From the NCBI RefSeq assembly GCF_030818935.1, contig NZ_JAUTBD010000001.1:1736001-1800000 (forward strand): a DNA stretch of 64,000 bases, written 5' to 3'. The DNA is from Microbacterium sp. SORGH_AS_1204 (GTDB lineage: Bacteria; Actinomycetota; Actinomycetes; Actinomycetales; Microbacteriaceae). Below the pieces are notes generated by a model that did not search any database, was not told the DNA's origin, and was given only the letters and a program-made list of their open reading frames with translations. Positions 47,256-59,174 of this stretch are shown here, one piece after another. The position numbers and the translations under genes were made by a program. Position 1 is the first letter of the stretch. Each line of letters opens with the position of its first letter.

Positions 47256-47280
47256 GGTCCCTGAGCCTGTCGAAGGGACC
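47256..47280. repeat. Palindromic element, GGTCCCT...AGGGACC
   Basis: 25-bp element with 7-bp arms and an 11-nt centre GAGCCTGTCGA. Related elements occur at 53271-53295 and 53351-53374 within the ileS leader. Sequences of this type are common in actinobacterial intergenic DNA, by recollection. After the VKOR gene it may also serve as a weak terminator. Confidence 0.75.
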
Positions 47281-47391
47281 GGTCTCACGCGCCGGGCCCG
47301 AATTCGGCGGTCTGCGCGAGCTCCGCCCGCCCCGGGTGCGACTGCCCTGACACCGACTTCGTACCCACAGCCCCCCGCGACATCGGAGGCC

Positions 47392-47478
47392 GTGCACAAC
47401 CTCAGCGATGTGCACGAACTCCGCCCGATGGCCCCGGATGCCACTGATGTGACGCACATCACTGACTTTGTGCGCGGA
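47392..47478. repeat. Dispersed GTGCACA double-hairpin repeat, diverged copy
   Basis: Begins GTGCACAACCTCAGCGATG and continues to a CTGACTTTGTGCGC block; matches the 114-bp unit repeated at 58825-59140. GTGCACA (47392-47398) and TGTGCAC (47409-47415) form a perfect inverted repeat. The 354-bp spacer 47235-47588 otherwise holds only a palindrome and the ndk terminator. Confidence 0.75.
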
Positions 47479-48422: not shown

Positions 48423-49771
48423 GCCTGCCACCCGGCCTTCCAGTCCTCGAGCTCCGACAGGCGCAGCGCCTCCCCGGCGAGCACGACGCTTCCCGCGATC
48501 ACCACGGCGCGGCGGTCGGACTCCGCGGCCCACGAGCGCGCGGCGTCCGCGGCGTCCTCAAGGGTGGGGTGCACGGTGACAGGCAGATCCGCGGCCTCGG
48601 CGACGTCGGCGATCGCGTCGGGATCGGTGGCGCGGTCGCTGTCGGGCGCGGTGGCGAACACGCGCGCCACGGCCGGAACGAGCGCCGACACGATGCCGGC
48701 GGCATCCTTGCCGTCGAGGATGCCGACCACGGCGCCCCACTCGTCGATGTCGAACGACTCGTCGAGCGCGGCGACCAGCGCGCGAGCGCCGTGCGGGTTG
48801 TGGGCGGCGTCGACGAGCACGGTCGGAGCGGTGCCGACGAGCTGCAGGCGCCCGGGCGAGGTGGCGGTGCCGAGGCCGTCGGCGACGACGTCGGCGGCGA
48901 GGGGCTGCGTGCCCCCGCCGATGAGCGATTCGACCGCGGCGACGGCGAGGGCGGCGTTGTGTCCCTGGTGGGCGCCGTACTGCGGCAGGTAGACCTCCGG
49001 GTAGCTTCCGGCCACACCGCGGACGGTGAGCTGCTGCCCGCCCACCGCGAGCGTCTGCGCCTCGAGACCGAACGCGGAGCCCTCGACGGCGAGCGTCGCG
49101 CCCTCCTTCTCGGCCCGGGCGCGGAGGACGCGCAGCGCCTCTGCGGGCTGCTCGGCCGAGACGACCGCGGCGCCCGGCTTGATGATCCCGGCCTTGACGG
49201 TGGCGATCTCGGCGACGGTCGAGCCCAGCCGGTCGACGTGGTCGATGTCGATGGGGGTGAACACGGCGACGTCGCCGTCGGCGGTGTTCGTCGAGTCCCA
49301 CTCTCCGCCCATGCCGACCTCGAGCACGAGCACGTCGATCGGCGCGTCCGCGCACGCGACGAAGGCCAGCACCGTCAGCAGCTCGAAGAACGTCAGCGGA
49401 GCGTCCCCGGATGCCGCGAGCTCGGCATCCACCATGTCGACGAACGGCTGGATCTCGTCCCACGCGTCAGCGATCGCGGCATCCGACACGGGCTCGCCGT
49501 CGATGAGGATGCGCTCGGTGAACCGCTCAAGGTGCGGGCTGGTGAACAGGCCCGTCCGAAGCCCCATCGCGCGCAGCAAGCTCTCGATCATGCGGCTCGT
49601 CGAGGTCTTGCCGTTCGTGCCGGTCACGTGGATCACGCGGTACGTGCGCTGCGGGTCGGCGAGCAGTTCGAGCACGCGGCGCGTGCGCTCGACGCGCGGC
49701 TGCACCCACTGCTCGCCCTGACGCTCCAGCAGCGCGCCGTAGACGGCGTCGGCCCGGGTGCGGTCGCTCAT
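48419..49771 (-). CDS. folC: Dihydrofolate synthase / folylpolyglutamate synthase
   Basis: 450 residues. Mur-ligase-type P-loop [40 protein letters not shown] and the C-terminal [19 protein letters not shown]. Adds glutamate to dihydropteroate or folates. The ATG at 49771 overlaps the ileS stop (ATGA). Coupled to ileS and DUF4233. Confidence 0.96.
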
Positions 49772-52700
49772 GCGGTTCCTCCGATCCGGGCGACGGCCAC
49801 CGTGACGGCGCCGGCGTTCGCGTAGGTCTTGGCGGCGATCTGCGTCTCGTACTCGGCGGGCAGGGCCGCGCCGCGCTTGATGAGTCGGCCCTGCGGACCG
49901 GCCAGCACGACCGCCTCCGCCAGGGTCTCGGATGCCACACCCGCGACCTCGAACGCCTGGGCGACGGCCTGCGCGTCGGCGTCGTCGACGAACGTCAGCG
50001 ACAGGAAGATGCGGTCGCTCACGTCGAAGCCGGCGGCCTTGCGGGTGTCCTGGATGCCGCGGATCATGTCGCGCGCCAAGCCCTCGGCCTCGAGCTCGGG
50101 GGTGGTGACGGTGTCGAGCAGCACGAAACCTCCGCTCGACAGCACCGCGAGAGCTTCGCCTTCGGGGCGACCGGCGGTCTCGACGACGAGGTCGTACTCG
50201 GCGGGCTCCAGCGGGATGCCGCCGGCGACGACCCGACCGTCGACCTCGCTCCAATCGCCCTCGCGGGCGGCCTTGATGGCCTGCTGAACCTGCTTGCCGA
50301 GGCGCGGGCCCGCGGCGCGCGCGTTCACCGAGAGGCGGTGGGTGATGCCGTACTCCCCCGCCGTGCCTTCTTCGAGGGCGACCTGCTCGACGGCCTTGAC
50401 ATTCAGCTCTTCGCGCAGGATGTCGTCGAACTGCGCCAAGCCCGTGGCATCCGGGGTCACCACCGTCAGACGCGGCAGCGGCAGGCGCACGCGCTTGCCC
50501 TCCTTCTTGCGCAAGGCGTTGGCGACGCTGGAGACCTCACGGACCGTGTCCATCGCGGTGCGGATGTCTGCCGCCGCGGGGAAGACCGACGCGTCGGGCC
50601 AGTCCTCGAGGTGCACGCTGCGGCCGCCCGTGAGGCCCTGCCACACGCGCTCCGAGACGAGCGGGATGAGCGGGGCCGCGACGCGCGTCAGCGTCTCGAG
50701 CACCGTGTACAGCGTGTCGAAGGCCTCGCGGCTCGACGGATCGTCGGTCACGCCCACCCAGAAGCGGTCGCGCGAGCGGCGGATGTACCAGTTGGTCAGC
50801 ACCTCGGCGAAGTCGCGCAGGCGCTCGGCCGCGGTCGTGGAGTCGAGGCCCTCGAGGTCGGCGGCGACATCGCGCACGAGGTCGCCGGTCAGCGCGAGGA
50901 TGTACCGGTCGAGCACGTCGGTCGAGTCGGTGCGCCACTCGGCGGTGTACCCGCCGGGACCCGAAGCGTTGGCGTAGGTCGCGAAGAAGTACCACGCGTT
51001 CCACAGCGGCAGCAGGAACTCGCGCACGCCCGAGCGGATGCCCTCCTCGGTCACGACGAGGTTTCCACCCCGCAGCACGCTGGACGACATGAGGAACCAC
51101 CGCATGGCATCCGACCCGTCGCGGTCGAAGACCTCGCGCACGTCGGGGTAGTTGCGCAGCGACTTCGACATCTTCTGCCCGTCGTTGCCGAGCACGATGC
51201 CGTGGCACGAGACGCCGGTGTACGCCGGGCGGTCGAACAGCGCGGTCGAGAGCACGTGCATCACGTAGAACCAGCCGCGGGTCTGCCCGATGTACTCGAC
51301 GATGAAGTCGGCCGGGGCGTGCTCGTCGAACCACTCGTGGTTCTCGAACGGGTAGTGCACCTGCGCGAACGGCATCGAGCCCGAGTCGAACCACACGTCG
51401 AGCACGTCTTCGATGCGGCGCATCGTCGACTGACCCGTCGGATCGTCGGGGTTGGGGCGTGTGAGGTCGTCGATGTAGGGACGGTGCAGGTCGACCTCGC
51501 CGTCGGCGTTCACCGGCAGGCGGCCGAAGTCGGCCTCCATCTCGGCGAGCGAGCCGTAGACGTCGACGCGCGGGTGGTTCGGGTCGTCGCTCTTCCAGAC
51601 CGGGATCGGCGAGCCCCAGTAGCGGTTGCGGCTGATAGACCAGTCGCGCGCGCCCTCGAGCCACTTGCCGAACTGGCCCTCCTTGACGTTCTCGGGCACC
51701 CAGGTGATTCGCTGGTTGTTCGCCAGCAAGTCGTCCTTGATGTCGGTCACGCGCACGAACCAGCTCGACACGGCCTTGTAGATGAGGGGGTTCCGGCAGC
51801 GCCAGCAGTGCGGGTACGAGTGCTCGTACGACGCCTCGCGCAGCAGCCGGCCCTCCTGCTTCAGCAGGCGGATGAGGGGGCGGTTGGCGTCCAGCCACAG
51901 CTCCCCCGCGACGTCGGTCACGGCCGAGAGGAACCGGCCGCCGTCGTCGAGCGAGATGATCGTCGGCAGGCCCGCAGCATCCGCGAGGCGCTTGTCGTCC
52001 TCACCGTAGGCGGGAGCCTGGTGCACGATGCCCGTGCCGTCCGAGACGGTGACGTAGTCGTCGACGAGGATCTTCCAGGCGTCCTGCGTGCCCCACACGG
52101 AGGCATCGGCGTAGTAGTCGAAGAGGCGGTCGTAAGAGACGCCCTCGAGCTCGGCGCCCGAGATGGTCGTCTGCACGGCCGCGCGGGCGGCATCCGCGCT
52201 CTCGTACCCGAGATCCTTGGCGTAGTTCGCCAGCAGATCTTCGGCGAGCAGGTAGCGGTGCGCGACGGCTTCGAACGCCTCGTCGGGCGTGCCGTCGGGG
52301 GTCGTGTGCACGTCGGCGGCGCCGTTCGGCCCGCCCTCGATGACGGCATAACGGATGCCGGGGCCCACCGCGAGAGCGAGGTTCGTCGGCAGGGTCCACG
52401 GCGTCGTCGTCCACGCGAGCGCCCGGACGCCGGTGAGGCCCAGCGCCTCGGCCTTCGCGCCGACGAGCGGGAAGGTGACGGTGACCGAGGGGTCCTGCCG
52501 CATCTTGTAGACGTCGTCGTCCATGCGCAGCTCGTGCGTCGACAGCGGCGTCTCGTCGCGCCAGCAGTACGGCAGCACGCGGTACCCCTCGTAGGCGAGG
52601 CCCTTGTCGTGCAGGGTCTTGAACGCCCAGAGGACGCTCTCCATGTACGTGGTGTCGAGCGTCTTGTACCCGCGCTCGAAGTCGACCCAGCGCGCCTGAC

Positions 52701-53199
52701 GGGTGACGTAGTCCTGCCACTCGCGCGTGTACTCGAGCACCGACTCGCGGGCCTTGGCGTTGAAGGTCGCCACACCCATGGCCTCGATCTCGTCTTTCTC
52801 GGTGATCCCGAGCTGCTTCATGGCCTCGAGCTCGGCCGGCAGGCCGTGCGTGTCCCACCCGAAGACGCGGTCGACCTTCTTGCCGCGCATCGTCTGGAAG
52901 CGCGGGAAGACGTCCTTGGCGTACCCGGTCAGCAGGTGCCCGTAGTGCGGCAGGCCGTTGGCGAACGGCGGGCCGTCGTAGAACACCCACTCCTCGGCGC
53001 CCTCGCGGTTCGCGATCGAGGCGCGGAAGGTGTCGTCGGCCGCCCAGAACGCAAGAGTGTCGTTCTCGATCTGGGGGAAGCGAGGGCTGGGGACGACGGA
53101 TGCCGTCGCGGCGGCGCCCTGCGCGGTCGCCGGGGCCGTGGCATCCGAGGAAGACGCGTCGGCGGCGGGGCCGAAGGATGAGGGGCGTGGGTAGGTCAT
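49768..53199 (-). CDS. ileS: Isoleucyl-tRNA synthetase, long (eukaryote-like) form
   Basis: 1143 residues. HIGH-type motif in [25 protein letters not shown] in [13 protein letters not shown], and [20 protein letters not shown] in the editing-domain region. The length, the GLPHYGH sequence and the long C-terminal domain point to the IleRS type found in eukaryotes and many actinobacteria, which in family studies tends to be mupirocin-insensitive; this is inference. A variable N-terminal stretch of about 40 residues (Ala/Ser-rich) precedes the core. Preceded by a T-box leader and GGAG Shine-Dalgarno. Confidence 0.96.
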
Positions 53200-53427
53200 G
53201 TCACTCCGCGGGTCGAGGTCTGCTCGCCGGGACGATCCATGCGGACCGCGGTACCACCCTGCATTGCGCCGGACCCTTCGACGAGCTCAGGGGCCGATGC
53301 CGCTCTCACTGCGGCTGTGACGGGCCTGCCCCGCGCGGTTCTAGTGATTCGGTCCTCGAGCGTGTCGAAGGACCGGACGTTCTTCCGCGAGCTCCCCGGT
53401 GATGGCCGGATCGGTGCTGATCACTCC
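53200..53427 (-). promoter_or_regulatory. ileS T-box leader (translational class) with embedded palindromes
   Basis: The T-box core AGGGTGGTACCGCGG is present at 53246-53260; its TGGT would pair with the ACCA end of uncharged tRNA-Ile. A compact stem I region reads GATCCGGCCATCACCGG with specifier ATC at 53401-53403, followed by GGAAGAACG and ACTAGAACC as in mycobacterial ileS leaders recalled from memory. No U-tract follows. Instead CCGCGG of the T-box recurs at 53206-53211 next to the Shine-Dalgarno and can pair with itself, so sequestering the start is likely. Palindromes lie at 53351-53374 and 53271-53295. Confidence 0.88.
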
Positions 53428-53433
53428 AGTCTA
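53428..53433 (-). promoter_or_regulatory. -10 box TAGACT of the ileS operon
   Basis: TAGACT on the minus strand, inside the last bases before the ABC ATPase stop region, about 230 nt before ileS and directly ahead of the T-box. No good -35. Confidence 0.55.
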
Positions 53434-53438
53434 CGCGG

Positions 53439-55151
53439 TCAGGGCGACGCGCCGGGGCCGAGGCCGGCGGCGTCCAGCAGCTCACGGGTGAACGGATGCC
53501 GCGGCGCGGTGAACACGGTCGCAAGCGGGCCCGCGTCGACGACCCGCCCGTCCTTCATCACCAGCACGTCGTCGGCGATCGCGGCCACCACGTCGAGGTC
53601 GTGCGTGACGAAGACCATCGCGAGGTCGCGCTCGGCCTGCAGCGCCCTCAGCCGGTCGAGGATCCGCGCGCGCACCGTCGCATCCAGCGCCGACACCGGC
53701 TCGTCGAGCACGAGCAGGTCGGGCGAGACGGCGAGGGCGCGGGCGATGGCGACGCGCTGGCGCTGACCGCCGGACAGTTGGGCGGGTCGCCGCCCGGCGA
53801 AGGCGGCTGTGAGCCCCACCTCGTCGAGCAGCGCCAAGACGGTGCGCCGCCGGTCGGAGCGTGCCACCCCCGCCGCGGCCACGGCCTCGGTGAGCGTGCG
53901 GCCGACGCTCCATCGCGGGTCGAGCGCGCCCCACGGATTCTGCTGCACGAGCTGCACACGCCGCCGGTCCGCCCCGCGGGCGATCGACACGCCCCACGGA
54001 CGTCCGTCGAAGACGAGCTGCCCCGCGTCAGCCGCGGTCACCCCCACCACCATGCGCGCGAGCGTCGTCTTGCCCGACCCCGACTCCCCGACGACGGCGA
54101 GCGTGCGACCGCGACGCACCTCGAACGACACGTCGTCGACGGCGACCCGATCGCCGAACCGCTTGCTCACCCGCGTGGCCGTGAACAGAGCCGCATCGGT
54201 GCGCGGGGCCCGAGCGAGCGGTTCATGCGACACGGCCGTGACGAGTTCGCGGGTCACCGGATGCCCGGGGGATGCCAGCACCTCGGCCGTGACGCCCGTC
54301 TCGACCACACGCCCGTCATGCATGACCACGATGCGATCGGCCACCCGCGCGACGGCGCCGAGGTCGTGACTGATGAAGACCACGGCCACCCCGTCGTCGG
54401 CGATGCGGCGCACGAGGTCGAGCACTCGCGCCTGCACCGTGGCATCCAGGGCCGTCGTCGGTTCATCGGCCACGAGAACCGACGGCGTCGCGGCGAGTGC
54501 CGAGGCGATGAGCGCGCGCTGGCGCAGTCCCCCGGAGAGCTCGTGCGGGTACTGCCGGGCGCGCAGGTCGGGCTCGGGAAGCGAGACGCGTTCGAGGTTT
54601 CCGCGCACGCGTGCGGCGAGGGCTGCGCCGCGGACGGAGGGGTCGTGGATGCGGATGGGCTCGGCCACCTCGGCGCCGATGCGGCGCAGCGGGTCGAGCG
54701 AGACGAGCGCGTCCTGCGAGACCAGGGCGATGCGGCGGCCGCGCAGAGCACGCCACTGCCTCTCGGTGGCCGCGCGGACGTCGACCCCGTCGACCGAGAG
54801 GGCGTCGACGGCGCTCGTGAGGCCGTCGGGCACGATGCCGAGCAGAGCCCGCGCGCTGAGCGACTTGCCGGCGCCGGACTCCCCCACGATCGCGACGCAC
54901 TCCCCCGGCGCGACGTCGAGGTCGAGGCCGTCGACGATGGCACCTGAAGGGCCGGCGATGCGCAGGCCGCGGAGGTGGAGACCGGACGCGGGCGGTGCTT
55001 CGCGGCGGGCGGCAGCGGCTCCCCCGGCGCGCGGCGGGGTGGCATCCGCGGCCCCCGCCGTCGGCGGAGCGTCTGTCGCATCGGCATCCCTTTCGTTCAC
55101 GCGCCGTGCGGCGTCGTCTGCGCCGGGCACCCCGGCATCCCGCCCGCTCAT
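53439..55151 (-). CDS. Fused dipeptide-type ABC transporter ATPase (DppD-DppF-like)
   Basis: 570 residues with two complete ABC domains: Walker A GESGAGKS and GESGSGKT, signatures LSGGLRQRA and LSGGQRQRV, Walker B VLVADEPTTALD and LLVLDEPVSALD. The N-terminal ~60 residues are Ala/Pro-rich and low complexity. Powers import of peptides, nickel or similar ligands together with the two permeases and the family 5 binding protein upstream. The ATG at 55151 overlaps, by ATGA, a 17-codon duplicate of the permease end. Confidence 0.93.
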   Translation of the reverse strand: MSGRDAGVPGADDAARRVNERDADATDAPPTAGAADATPPRAGGAAAARREAPPASGLHLRGLRIAGPSGAIVDGLDLDVAPGECVAIVGESGAGKSLSARALLGIVPDGLTSAVDALSVDGVDVRAATERQWRALRGRRIALVSQDALVSLDPLRRIGAEVAEPIRIHDPSVRGAALAARVRGNLERVSLPEPDLRARQYPHELSGGLRQRALIASALAATPSVLVADEPTTALDATVQARVLDLVRRIADDGVAVVFISHDLGAVARVADRIVVMHDGRVVETGVTAEVLASPGHPVTRELVTAVSHEPLARAPRTDAALFTATRVSKRFGDRVAVDDVSFEVRRGRTLAVVGESGSGKTTLARMVVGVTAADAGQLVFDGRPWGVSIARGADRRRVQLVQQNPWGALDPRWSVGRTLTEAVAAAGVARSDRRRTVLALLDEVGLTAAFAGRRPAQLSGGQRQRVAIARALAVSPDLLVLDEPVSALDATVRARILDRLRALQAERDLAMVFVTHDLDVVAAIADDVLVMKDGRVVDAGPLATVFTAPRHPFTRELLDAAGLGPGASP

Positions 55152-55245
55152 GCCCCGCGCTCCTCGGTCCGCGCGCGCAAGGTCCGTCCGACCACGCTCA
55201 TGCCCCACGCTCCTCGGTCCGCGCGCGCAAGGTCCGCCCGACCAC
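55146..55245 (-). repeat. 50-bp tandem duplication of the permease gene end
   Basis: Copies at 55146-55195 and 55196-55245 differ at a few bases. The duplicate carries a 17-codon ORF (55201-55148), MSVVGRTLRARTEERGA-stop, identical to the true permease C-terminus (SVVGRTLRARTEERGA). It has ATGA overlaps with both the permease stop and the ATPase start, so translational coupling is kept. Confidence 0.88.
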
Positions 55246-58719: not shown

Positions 58720-58824
58720 GACGAAACCTCGAAGTGTTCGGTGGGGAAGCCTCAGCCTACCCGCGTTCCTGGACCGCGTGCGGAAAGTCGGGATCCCCGC
58801 GCGCCCACGAGCGCCGCCCCACCC

Positions 58825-59140
58825 GTGCACAACCTCCGCGATGTGCACAGACTCCGTCGGCATCCCGCGCGTCCCGCCGACTTTGTGCACATCTTTCACC
58901 TTGCGCACAGCGCGGGCTGTGCGCGCGCCGTCCCACCCGTGCACAACCTCCGCGATGTGCACAAACTCCGTCGGCATCCGCACCCTGCCGCTGACTTTAT
59001 GCACATCTCTCACCTTGCGCACAGCGCGGGCTGTGCGCGCGCCGTCCCACCCGTGCACAACCTCCGCGATGTGCACAAACTCCGTCGGCATCCCGCGCCT
59101 CCCGCTGACTTTGTGCACACCACCGACCTTGCGCACGTCG
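58825..59140. repeat. 114-bp GTGCACA double-hairpin repeat in tandem (three copies)
   Basis: Copies start at 58825, 58939 and 59053, exactly 114 bp apart. Each has GTGCACA-N10-TGTGCAC (perfect 7-bp arms), then ACTCCGTCGGCATCC, then TGTGCACA-N10-TGCGCACA (8-bp arms, one mismatch). The third ends in CACCGACCTTGCGCAC. Single copies occur at 47392 and 60115. The 455-bp spacer between the binding protein and the DUF559 gene has no gene otherwise supported. Confidence 0.88.
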
Positions 59141-59174
59141 CCGGACGCCGAAACCCCCGGCGCACCCGTGCGAT

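Follow-up and report, generated by a model that had tools for sequence, protein, structure and literature searches.

The window analyzed here, a stretch of 64,000 nucleotides from Microbacterium sp. SORGH_AS_1204, contains an ileS gene whose leader carries two palindromes resembling repeats found elsewhere in the same genome. The locus raises the question of whether a dispersed repeat became a structural part of a riboswitch, or whether the repeat family itself arose from riboswitch stems. Both possibilities had been put forward in a preliminary description of this DNA.

The ileS leader and its palindromes

The essential ileS gene, encoding isoleucyl-tRNA synthetase, occupies positions 49768..53199 of the minus strand as an ORF of 1143 aa with its start codon at 53199, and its best named relative is that of Microbacterium sp. 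T32 (93% identity). A sample of 149 Microbacterium genomes was used for comparison, in which G000 denotes the genome of the window and other G numbers denote the remaining genomes. The first 300 aa of IleS were matched in all 149, weakly in G055 and G132. The leader, approximately 240 nt in length, lies directly upstream of ileS on the minus strand and contains, as described before, a T-box core and the Ile specifier ATC. Stem I (CCGGCCATCACCGG) was placed from the sequence at 53396..53409 (minus strand), and the ATC in its loop at 53401-53403, which matches the amino acid of the gene, was found at the equivalent place in all 145 leaders with a readable stem I. Stem II (53332..53392, minus strand) consists of a base (CGCGG/CCGCG), an internal loop (AAGAAC/ACTAGAA), and a repeat-derived tip. 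Its base covaried among the 136 of 146 leaders that were parsed by script: pair 4 was T-A in 98, G-C in 25, and C-G in 6, pair 5 was C-G in 122 and T-A in 11, and pair 6 was mostly unpaired.

The stem IIA/B region (53318..53338, minus strand, limits approximate) was recognized by its position and by CGGGGCAGGCCCG; the name was taken from the literature, and the pseudoknot is putative. Stem III of the discriminator (53266..53303, minus strand), with GAGAG and AA at its sides, was delimited by sequence, leader comparison, and folding. A purine motif of comparable kind beside stem III is described in PMC7583486. The T-box core GGGTGGTACCGCGG (53246-53259) together with the antisequestrator spans 53229..53259 of the minus strand, as judged from the sequence and from an RF00230 alignment below gathering, and the UGGN-bearing T-box sequence GGTGGTACCGCG at 53247-53258 would face the NCCA end of the tRNA. 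The core or a close variant was present in 146 of 147 leader loci, the remaining one (G028) being truncated by a contig end. The sequestering CCGCGG reported earlier turned out to have two complementary copies, one within the T-box core (53246-53251) and the other at 53206..53211 (minus strand), where it overlaps the GGAG before the ileS ATG and is read from the sequence as a putative sequestrator. A universal sequestrator was also considered by comparing the 3' part of the T-box with the downstream DNA of relatives; the matches were mostly of 5-6 nt and inconsistent, and therefore the local CCGCGG pair alone is reported.

The proposed comparison with a covariance model yielded an alignment of the leader to the Rfam T-box RF00230, but with a score of 19.5 bits (E 0.023), which did not reach the gathering score of 93; an Rfam scan of the whole window likewise gave nothing reaching gathering score. 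In our reading, the low score may reflect the limit of the model for the short-stem-I class, and the T-box membership of the leader therefore rests on its anatomy and its relatives. The leader resembles the actinobacterial translational ileS T-box in its ATC specifier, S-turn-like stem II loop, IIA/B region, stem III, T-box bulge, and downstream ileS, and it is assigned to this class on these features, with predicted tRNA binding and translation control. Structures of the translational, short-stem-I ileS T-boxes of Nocardia farcinica and Mycobacterium tuberculosis are cited in PMC7583486. The present leader differs from the known actinobacterial ileS T-boxes in that its stem II and stem III tips are dispersed repeats.

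The two palindromes, GGTCCTCGAGCGTGTCGAAGGACC at 53351-53374 and GGACCCTTCGACGAGCTCAGGGGCC at 53271-53295, lie on the minus-strand leader exactly where they had been reported, but not as separate elements between stems: stem II ends in the former and stem III in the latter. The sense orientation is CCTTCGAC (plus) for the stem II copy, which is diverged, and CCCTGAGC..GTCGAAGGG (minus) for the stem III copy. The pattern CCTTCGACNNGCTCNNGG had 66 matches in the 3.7 Mb genome and 0 when the pattern was reversed as a control, and the repeat is a REP-like imperfect palindrome, CCCTTCGAC-NN-GCTCAGGG. Both leader copies and the one at 47256..47280 (unstranded) are among the 66 matches, consistent with the kinship claimed for the three. 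The stem III copy is exact at all 17 specified consensus positions. The stem II copy differs from the family consensus at 3 positions and is the sole one of the 66 without the terminal GCTCAGGG; its segment is predicted to fold locally (-15.1 kcal/mol).

The copy at 47256..47280 is intergenic by coding-bias gene calls, and positions 47259-47274 are identical to the 16-base core of the repeat. Among 30 sampled copies, 21 were intergenic and 9 lay within predicted genes according to the rough coding-bias gene caller. Around the copies of this genome, RNase P RNA was the only known RNA at Rfam gathering score, in a scan where copies near a scanned neighbor were covered by the locus of that neighbor. 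REP sequences with RAYT transposases are short dispersed imperfect palindromes, and the repeat is like them in being short, imperfectly palindromic, dispersed, and mostly intergenic in the sample. Unlike REP/RAYT systems, G000 showed 0 matches to Y1_Tnp (PF01797), with control matches in 5 of 14 genomes, and therefore the repeat is called REP-like only. Tandem copies with a 24 nt period, which would preserve the reading frame, were seen inside predicted genes at G000:C1:1606847-1606888 and 1904676-1904741. Copies with 0 or 1 mismatch were also seen downstream, in the ileS reading region of G030, G058, G084, and G101, all in one orientation, and are possibly protein-coding palindromes as in Rickettsia.

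Distribution among the leaders of the genus

The presence or absence of the palindromes was compared within the genus, as had been suggested. The 149 genomes gave 146 leaders, G028 (leader off the contig end) and G055 and G132 (no good ileS match) being left out, and stem II was counted in 145 of them, the stem II of G030 being N-masked. The repeat was found in stem III (at most 4 mismatches of 17) of 18 of the 146 leaders, compared with 0.33 in shuffles of the same segments, and in stem II (at most 3 mismatches) of 8 of the 145, compared with 0.015 in shuffles. The distribution of stem III mismatches has a gap, with no leader at 5 mismatches, and most other leaders carry short unrelated hairpins at the stem II and III positions. 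Universally conserved stems without likeness to intergenic repeats, the outcome named beforehand as speaking against capture, were sought in these leaders and were absent. The leader of G030 was seen to hold a tandem array of repeat-like units in its partly masked stem II.

At a threshold of 2 mismatches, the T-box sequences contained 21 copies in 23,998 nt, versus 0 in 59,254 nt of upstream DNA of the same leaders, a rough comparison because the control (up to 420 nt per leader) includes coding DNA of the neighboring gene. Exact copies in the leader tips numbered 9, against 0.49 expected even on the assumption that only 10% of each genome can receive copies. The presence of a leader copy followed the abundance of the repeat: the number of copies elsewhere in the genome had a median of 22 in the 24 leader carriers and of 0 in the other 122 (Mann-Whitney p 3.9e-9, kinship ignored), and where 10 or more copies lay elsewhere, 17 of 39 genomes had a leader copy, versus 7 of 107 with fewer. 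Copy numbers ranged from 0 to 319 over the 149 genomes, and the canonical copy was absent from 73 of them.

The carriers were scattered on an IleS codon tree built with the leader excluded (33 of 146 rows short, <150 aa; G057 omitted for a bad alignment start), on which the fewest state changes were 15 for stem III and 7 for stem II. As carriers are related, these counts are non-independent; events could also be overcounted through recombination or errors in the tree, and the changes do not separate gain from loss. In the 18-species clade of the window, the stem II carriers were G000, G058, G007, and G063, and the stem III carriers were G000, G058, G016, G084, and G070; the two sets overlap only partly, and therefore the two captures look like separate events. 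Close relatives inside this clade include leaders with unrelated tips, and no very close relative was found with the site exactly empty. Stem II of G111 contains the repeat in the opposite orientation, and stem III of G070 contains two tandem copies, one exact and one a near-copy.

A second dispersed family, containing GGTCGTTGAGCGAG, was found in stem III of G100 and G137. The GGTCGTTGAGCGAG 14-mer occurred 170 times in G137, 83 in G100, 35 in G064, and 5 in G062, with 0 in G000 and G121, and therefore stem III accepts more than one kind of dispersed repeat. A third family was suspected in stem III of G121 but was not confirmed, its 14-mer being found once in that genome. The stem III sequences of G062, G130, G101, G052, and G049 range from an exact copy through forms with internal losses that resemble ordinary hairpins; G101, G049, G052, and G130 are close together on the tree, and the nearest neighbors of G062 and G130 include non-carriers. 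If these five represent an erosion series, which is conjecture, captures of long ago may underlie some of the ordinary-looking hairpins found at stem III in other species.

Copies in RNase P RNA and strand orientation

RNase P RNA, scanned as a control for RNAs that might escape the repeat, proved the reverse: the repeat (at most 2 mismatches) was found there as well, with 19 copies in 16 of 30 repeat-rich genomes, G000 included. Twelve were located at one hairpin tip and 7 at another, hairpins that we take to be P12 and P19, respectively. The repeat-rich set comprised 28 genomes with at least 20 copies, together with G016 and G138, which were chosen by hand. At the 29 loci with full flanks, there were 19 copies in 11,047 nt of RNA versus 7 in 87,000 nt of flanks, a density 20 times higher, and exact copies numbered 11 versus 2.2 expected with confinement to a tenth of the genome. 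The change at P19 was clean, from GGGGCTCACGCCCCCG in several repeat-less species to GGGGTCCCTGAGCTTGTCGAAGGGCCCCCCG in G084. A repeat-free set of 30 was drawn from the 73 genomes that lack a canonical copy, and 29 of these 30 gave an RNase P match; no copy was found in these 29 loci even at 3 mismatches, exact copies being excluded by the definition of the set. The RNase P RNA of G000 (G000:C1:1689190-1689586, outside the window) was seen to carry a copy at both hairpin tips; one of these copies is exact and the other differs at 2 positions.

Two control RNAs of the repeat-rich genomes were free of the repeat. The TPP riboswitch loci had 0 copies inside the RNA and 2 in the flanks (30 loci scanned, 26 in the density count), and the tmRNA loci had 0 inside and 3 in the flanks (30 scanned, one of them, G016, a weak match only; 29 in the density count). 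Capture is therefore not general to all RNAs; it is frequent in the T-box and RNase P RNA, both of which have outer hairpins that vary freely, and is not seen in TPP riboswitches or tmRNA.

The orientation of the copies was biased. In the RNA sense, the CCCUGAGCNNGUCGAAGGG-like orientation was found for every one of the 18 copies in stem III and of the 19 in RNase P, a further RNase P copy of G124 with 3 mismatches running the opposite way, whereas 7 of the 8 stem II copies have the other strand. Copies between co-directional genes of G000 were 7 plus and 5 minus, both T-box copies counted. About 15 independent sites, counted by eye over broad lineages, all point one way, for which a sign test gives ~6e-5 as a rough estimate. 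These RNase P copies and the orientation bias go beyond what had been noticed in the first reading of the DNA.

The favored strand allows tandem G-A pairs in the stem, for which the sheared G-A motif is the known background, whereas the other strand has U-C/C-U mismatches. Of 30 genomic copies, 23 had a predicted energy in favor of the CCCUGAGCNNGUCGAAGGG-like strand (mean -10.7 vs -9.7). The predicted sense-strand hairpin was more stable in 17 of the 19 RNase P copies (mean -11.5 vs -9.6 kcal/mol) and in 12 of the 18 stem III copies (mean -9.6 vs -8.3 kcal/mol); it was less stable in the other 6 stem III copies, that of G000 among them, and in 7 of the 8 stem II copies, those with the other orientation. 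On the predicted energies, selection on the RNA hairpin may reasonably be inferred in RNase P and more weakly in stem III, and it is not seen in stem II. In the one lineage of G000 and G058, the stem II copy now reads CTCGAGG, so that UCGA is able to pair with UCGA; this looks like a repair of the mismatches.

Origin of the stem tips and relation to known systems

With the dispersal, patchiness, enrichment over flanks, recurrence, and orientation of the repeat observed, we consider it probable, with good confidence, that a dispersed REP-like palindrome came to occupy the stem II and stem III terminal loops, by insertion or by copying, with the T-box core intact. This is one of the two origins raised in the preliminary description, and the patchiness over 146 leaders, the repeat-richer genomes of carriers, the second family in stem III, and the RNase P copies all argue for it. 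The repeat CCCTTCGAC-NN-GCTCAGGG would enter the terminal loops of two variable T-box helices and, since it folds on itself, would merely lengthen the helix, leaving the riboswitch core whole: the specifier, the stem II internal loop, the purines that flank stem III, and the T-box bulge, by which the 3' end of the tRNA is sensed. With its core intact, the leader should still raise ileS translation with uncharged tRNA-Ile, so that carriers would be expected to switch normally and capture would probably be near neutral at tolerated sites. An equivalent capture of the same repeat would have taken place at the two RNase P RNA hairpin tips. The orientation at stem III and in RNase P may then be filtered by the RNA hairpin, and captured copies may later erode to ordinary hairpins. 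A broader scheme is offered as a tentative possibility, about which we are more doubtful than convinced: the outer helices of essential bacterial RNAs (T-box II/III, RNase P P12/P19) might be renewed by a cycle of mobile-palindrome capture and erosion with an RNA-hairpin orientation filter, and here the inverted double capture might also have made a competing helix of 22-26 bp, maybe an extra off state.

Other origins were weighed against capture. The stem II and III segments are hairpin-like in most leaders and naturally vary in length, and the palindromes could thus be normal T-box stems passed on by vertical descent, their likeness to the family being due to chance or to shared GC-rich palindromy; this is hardly credible against 18 and 8 observed copies versus 0.33 and 0.015 in shuffles, the unrelated tips of most relatives, even close ones in the 18-species clade, the higher genomic copy numbers of leader carriers, and the upstream-DNA control. 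An origin of the family in riboswitch or RNase P stems with later spread, the other proposal of the preliminary description, is disfavored by the unrelated hairpins of most leaders, the 73 of 149 genomes without any canonical copy, the occurrence of two unrelated repeat families in stem III, and the reversed stem II repeat of G111. That both kinds of RNA carry copies means that the direction is not readable from sequence alone, and in G140 a leader copy (1 mismatch) persists although the genome contains 0 canonical copies, but we still regard this origin as very improbable. A single early capture, in stem III of the ancestor of the genus, with many losses instead of repeated captures, would agree with the uniform orientation of all 18 stem III copies, with the apparent erosion series (G062, G130, G101, G052, G049), and with the same flanks in the closest relatives of the window (G000, G058, G016, G084). 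It is nevertheless unlikely, as the flanking helix sequences differ among more distant lineages, leader presence follows present-day genomic copy number, RNase P has the same orientation at two other sites, and the repeat is absent from the 30 other-genera leaders listed (judged by eye, with a pattern that limits stem length and could miss long insertions).

A further possibility is that the two copies were kept for mutual pairing, with a new long-range helix serving as an extra off state. Both copies were within the thresholds in only 2 of 146 leaders, those of G000 and its sister G058, G064 being borderline in both; in these two the copies are in inverted order and are therefore able to pair with each other, with arms of 23 nt that are 78% complementary in G000. 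Plain folding of the G000 leader gave no excess stability (z -0.07), with the palindromes pairing together; the structural argument was therefore moved to the comparative data. The unconstrained minimum-energy fold of the G000 leader differs from the T-box fold, with 26 predicted pairs between stem II and stem III (22 in G058), and lies 18.5 kcal/mol (21.3 in G058) below the T-box-like fold, compared with 1 to 12 in six other leaders. The predicted fold of G073, with neither copy, also has 15 stem II-stem III pairs. The diverged stem II copy of G000 pairs less well with stem III than the stem II of G063 would (predicted -40.8 vs -49.9), as though the pairing had been weakened. Because stem II emerges first during transcription and could form its own local hairpin, the long-range pairing was judged a risk, not a feature; its retention as an off state is improbable.

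The repeats of cyanobacterial rnpB are likewise located in RNase P RNA, but they are short tandem units, unlike the palindrome described here. In Rickettsia, palindromic elements (RPE) occur in two RNA genes, those of tmRNA and of the RNase P M1 RNA, according to Ogata 2002 as reported in PMC2229807. The present repeat is like RPE in that dispersed palindromes lie within structured RNA genes, here the T-box and RNase P, and are apparently tolerated; it is a different element in a different host, RPE units being ~100-200 bp according to that review. In contrast to RPE, the present case extends to a riboswitch, involves several sites as well as two repeat families, and shows a single orientation at stem III and in RNase P. 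No report of dispersed repeats within riboswitches was found among the matches listed in a search of the open-licence literature at the level of titles and abstract starts, and no occurrence of the repeat sequence itself was found in open-licence papers. The T-box class is known, and Rickettsia already offers examples of palindromes within RNA genes; the riboswitch case appears, within the scope of this search, to be new.

According to PMC7583486, stem III of translational T-boxes frequently has additional insertions, and the leaders of this genus show that captured dispersed repeats are one source of them. The finding connects dispersed palindromic repeats with the evolution of riboswitch and ribozyme architecture, usually separate subjects, and shows how such repeats can turn into parts of structured RNAs. 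It offers a concrete explanation of why T-box stem III and the RNase P outer helices vary in length, and the natural insertions mark where these RNAs tolerate growth. The question is testable because carriers, non-carriers, and degraded copies occur together in one genus.

Other repeats were also observed in the window. Three tandem units of 114 nt lie at 58808-59149, and an 87 nt stretch at 47390-47476, 11.4 kb away, has 69-74% identity to them. A 50 nt tandem duplication (96% identical) at 55145-55244 spans the junction of two ORFs, which, judged from their translations, look like ABC transporter genes.
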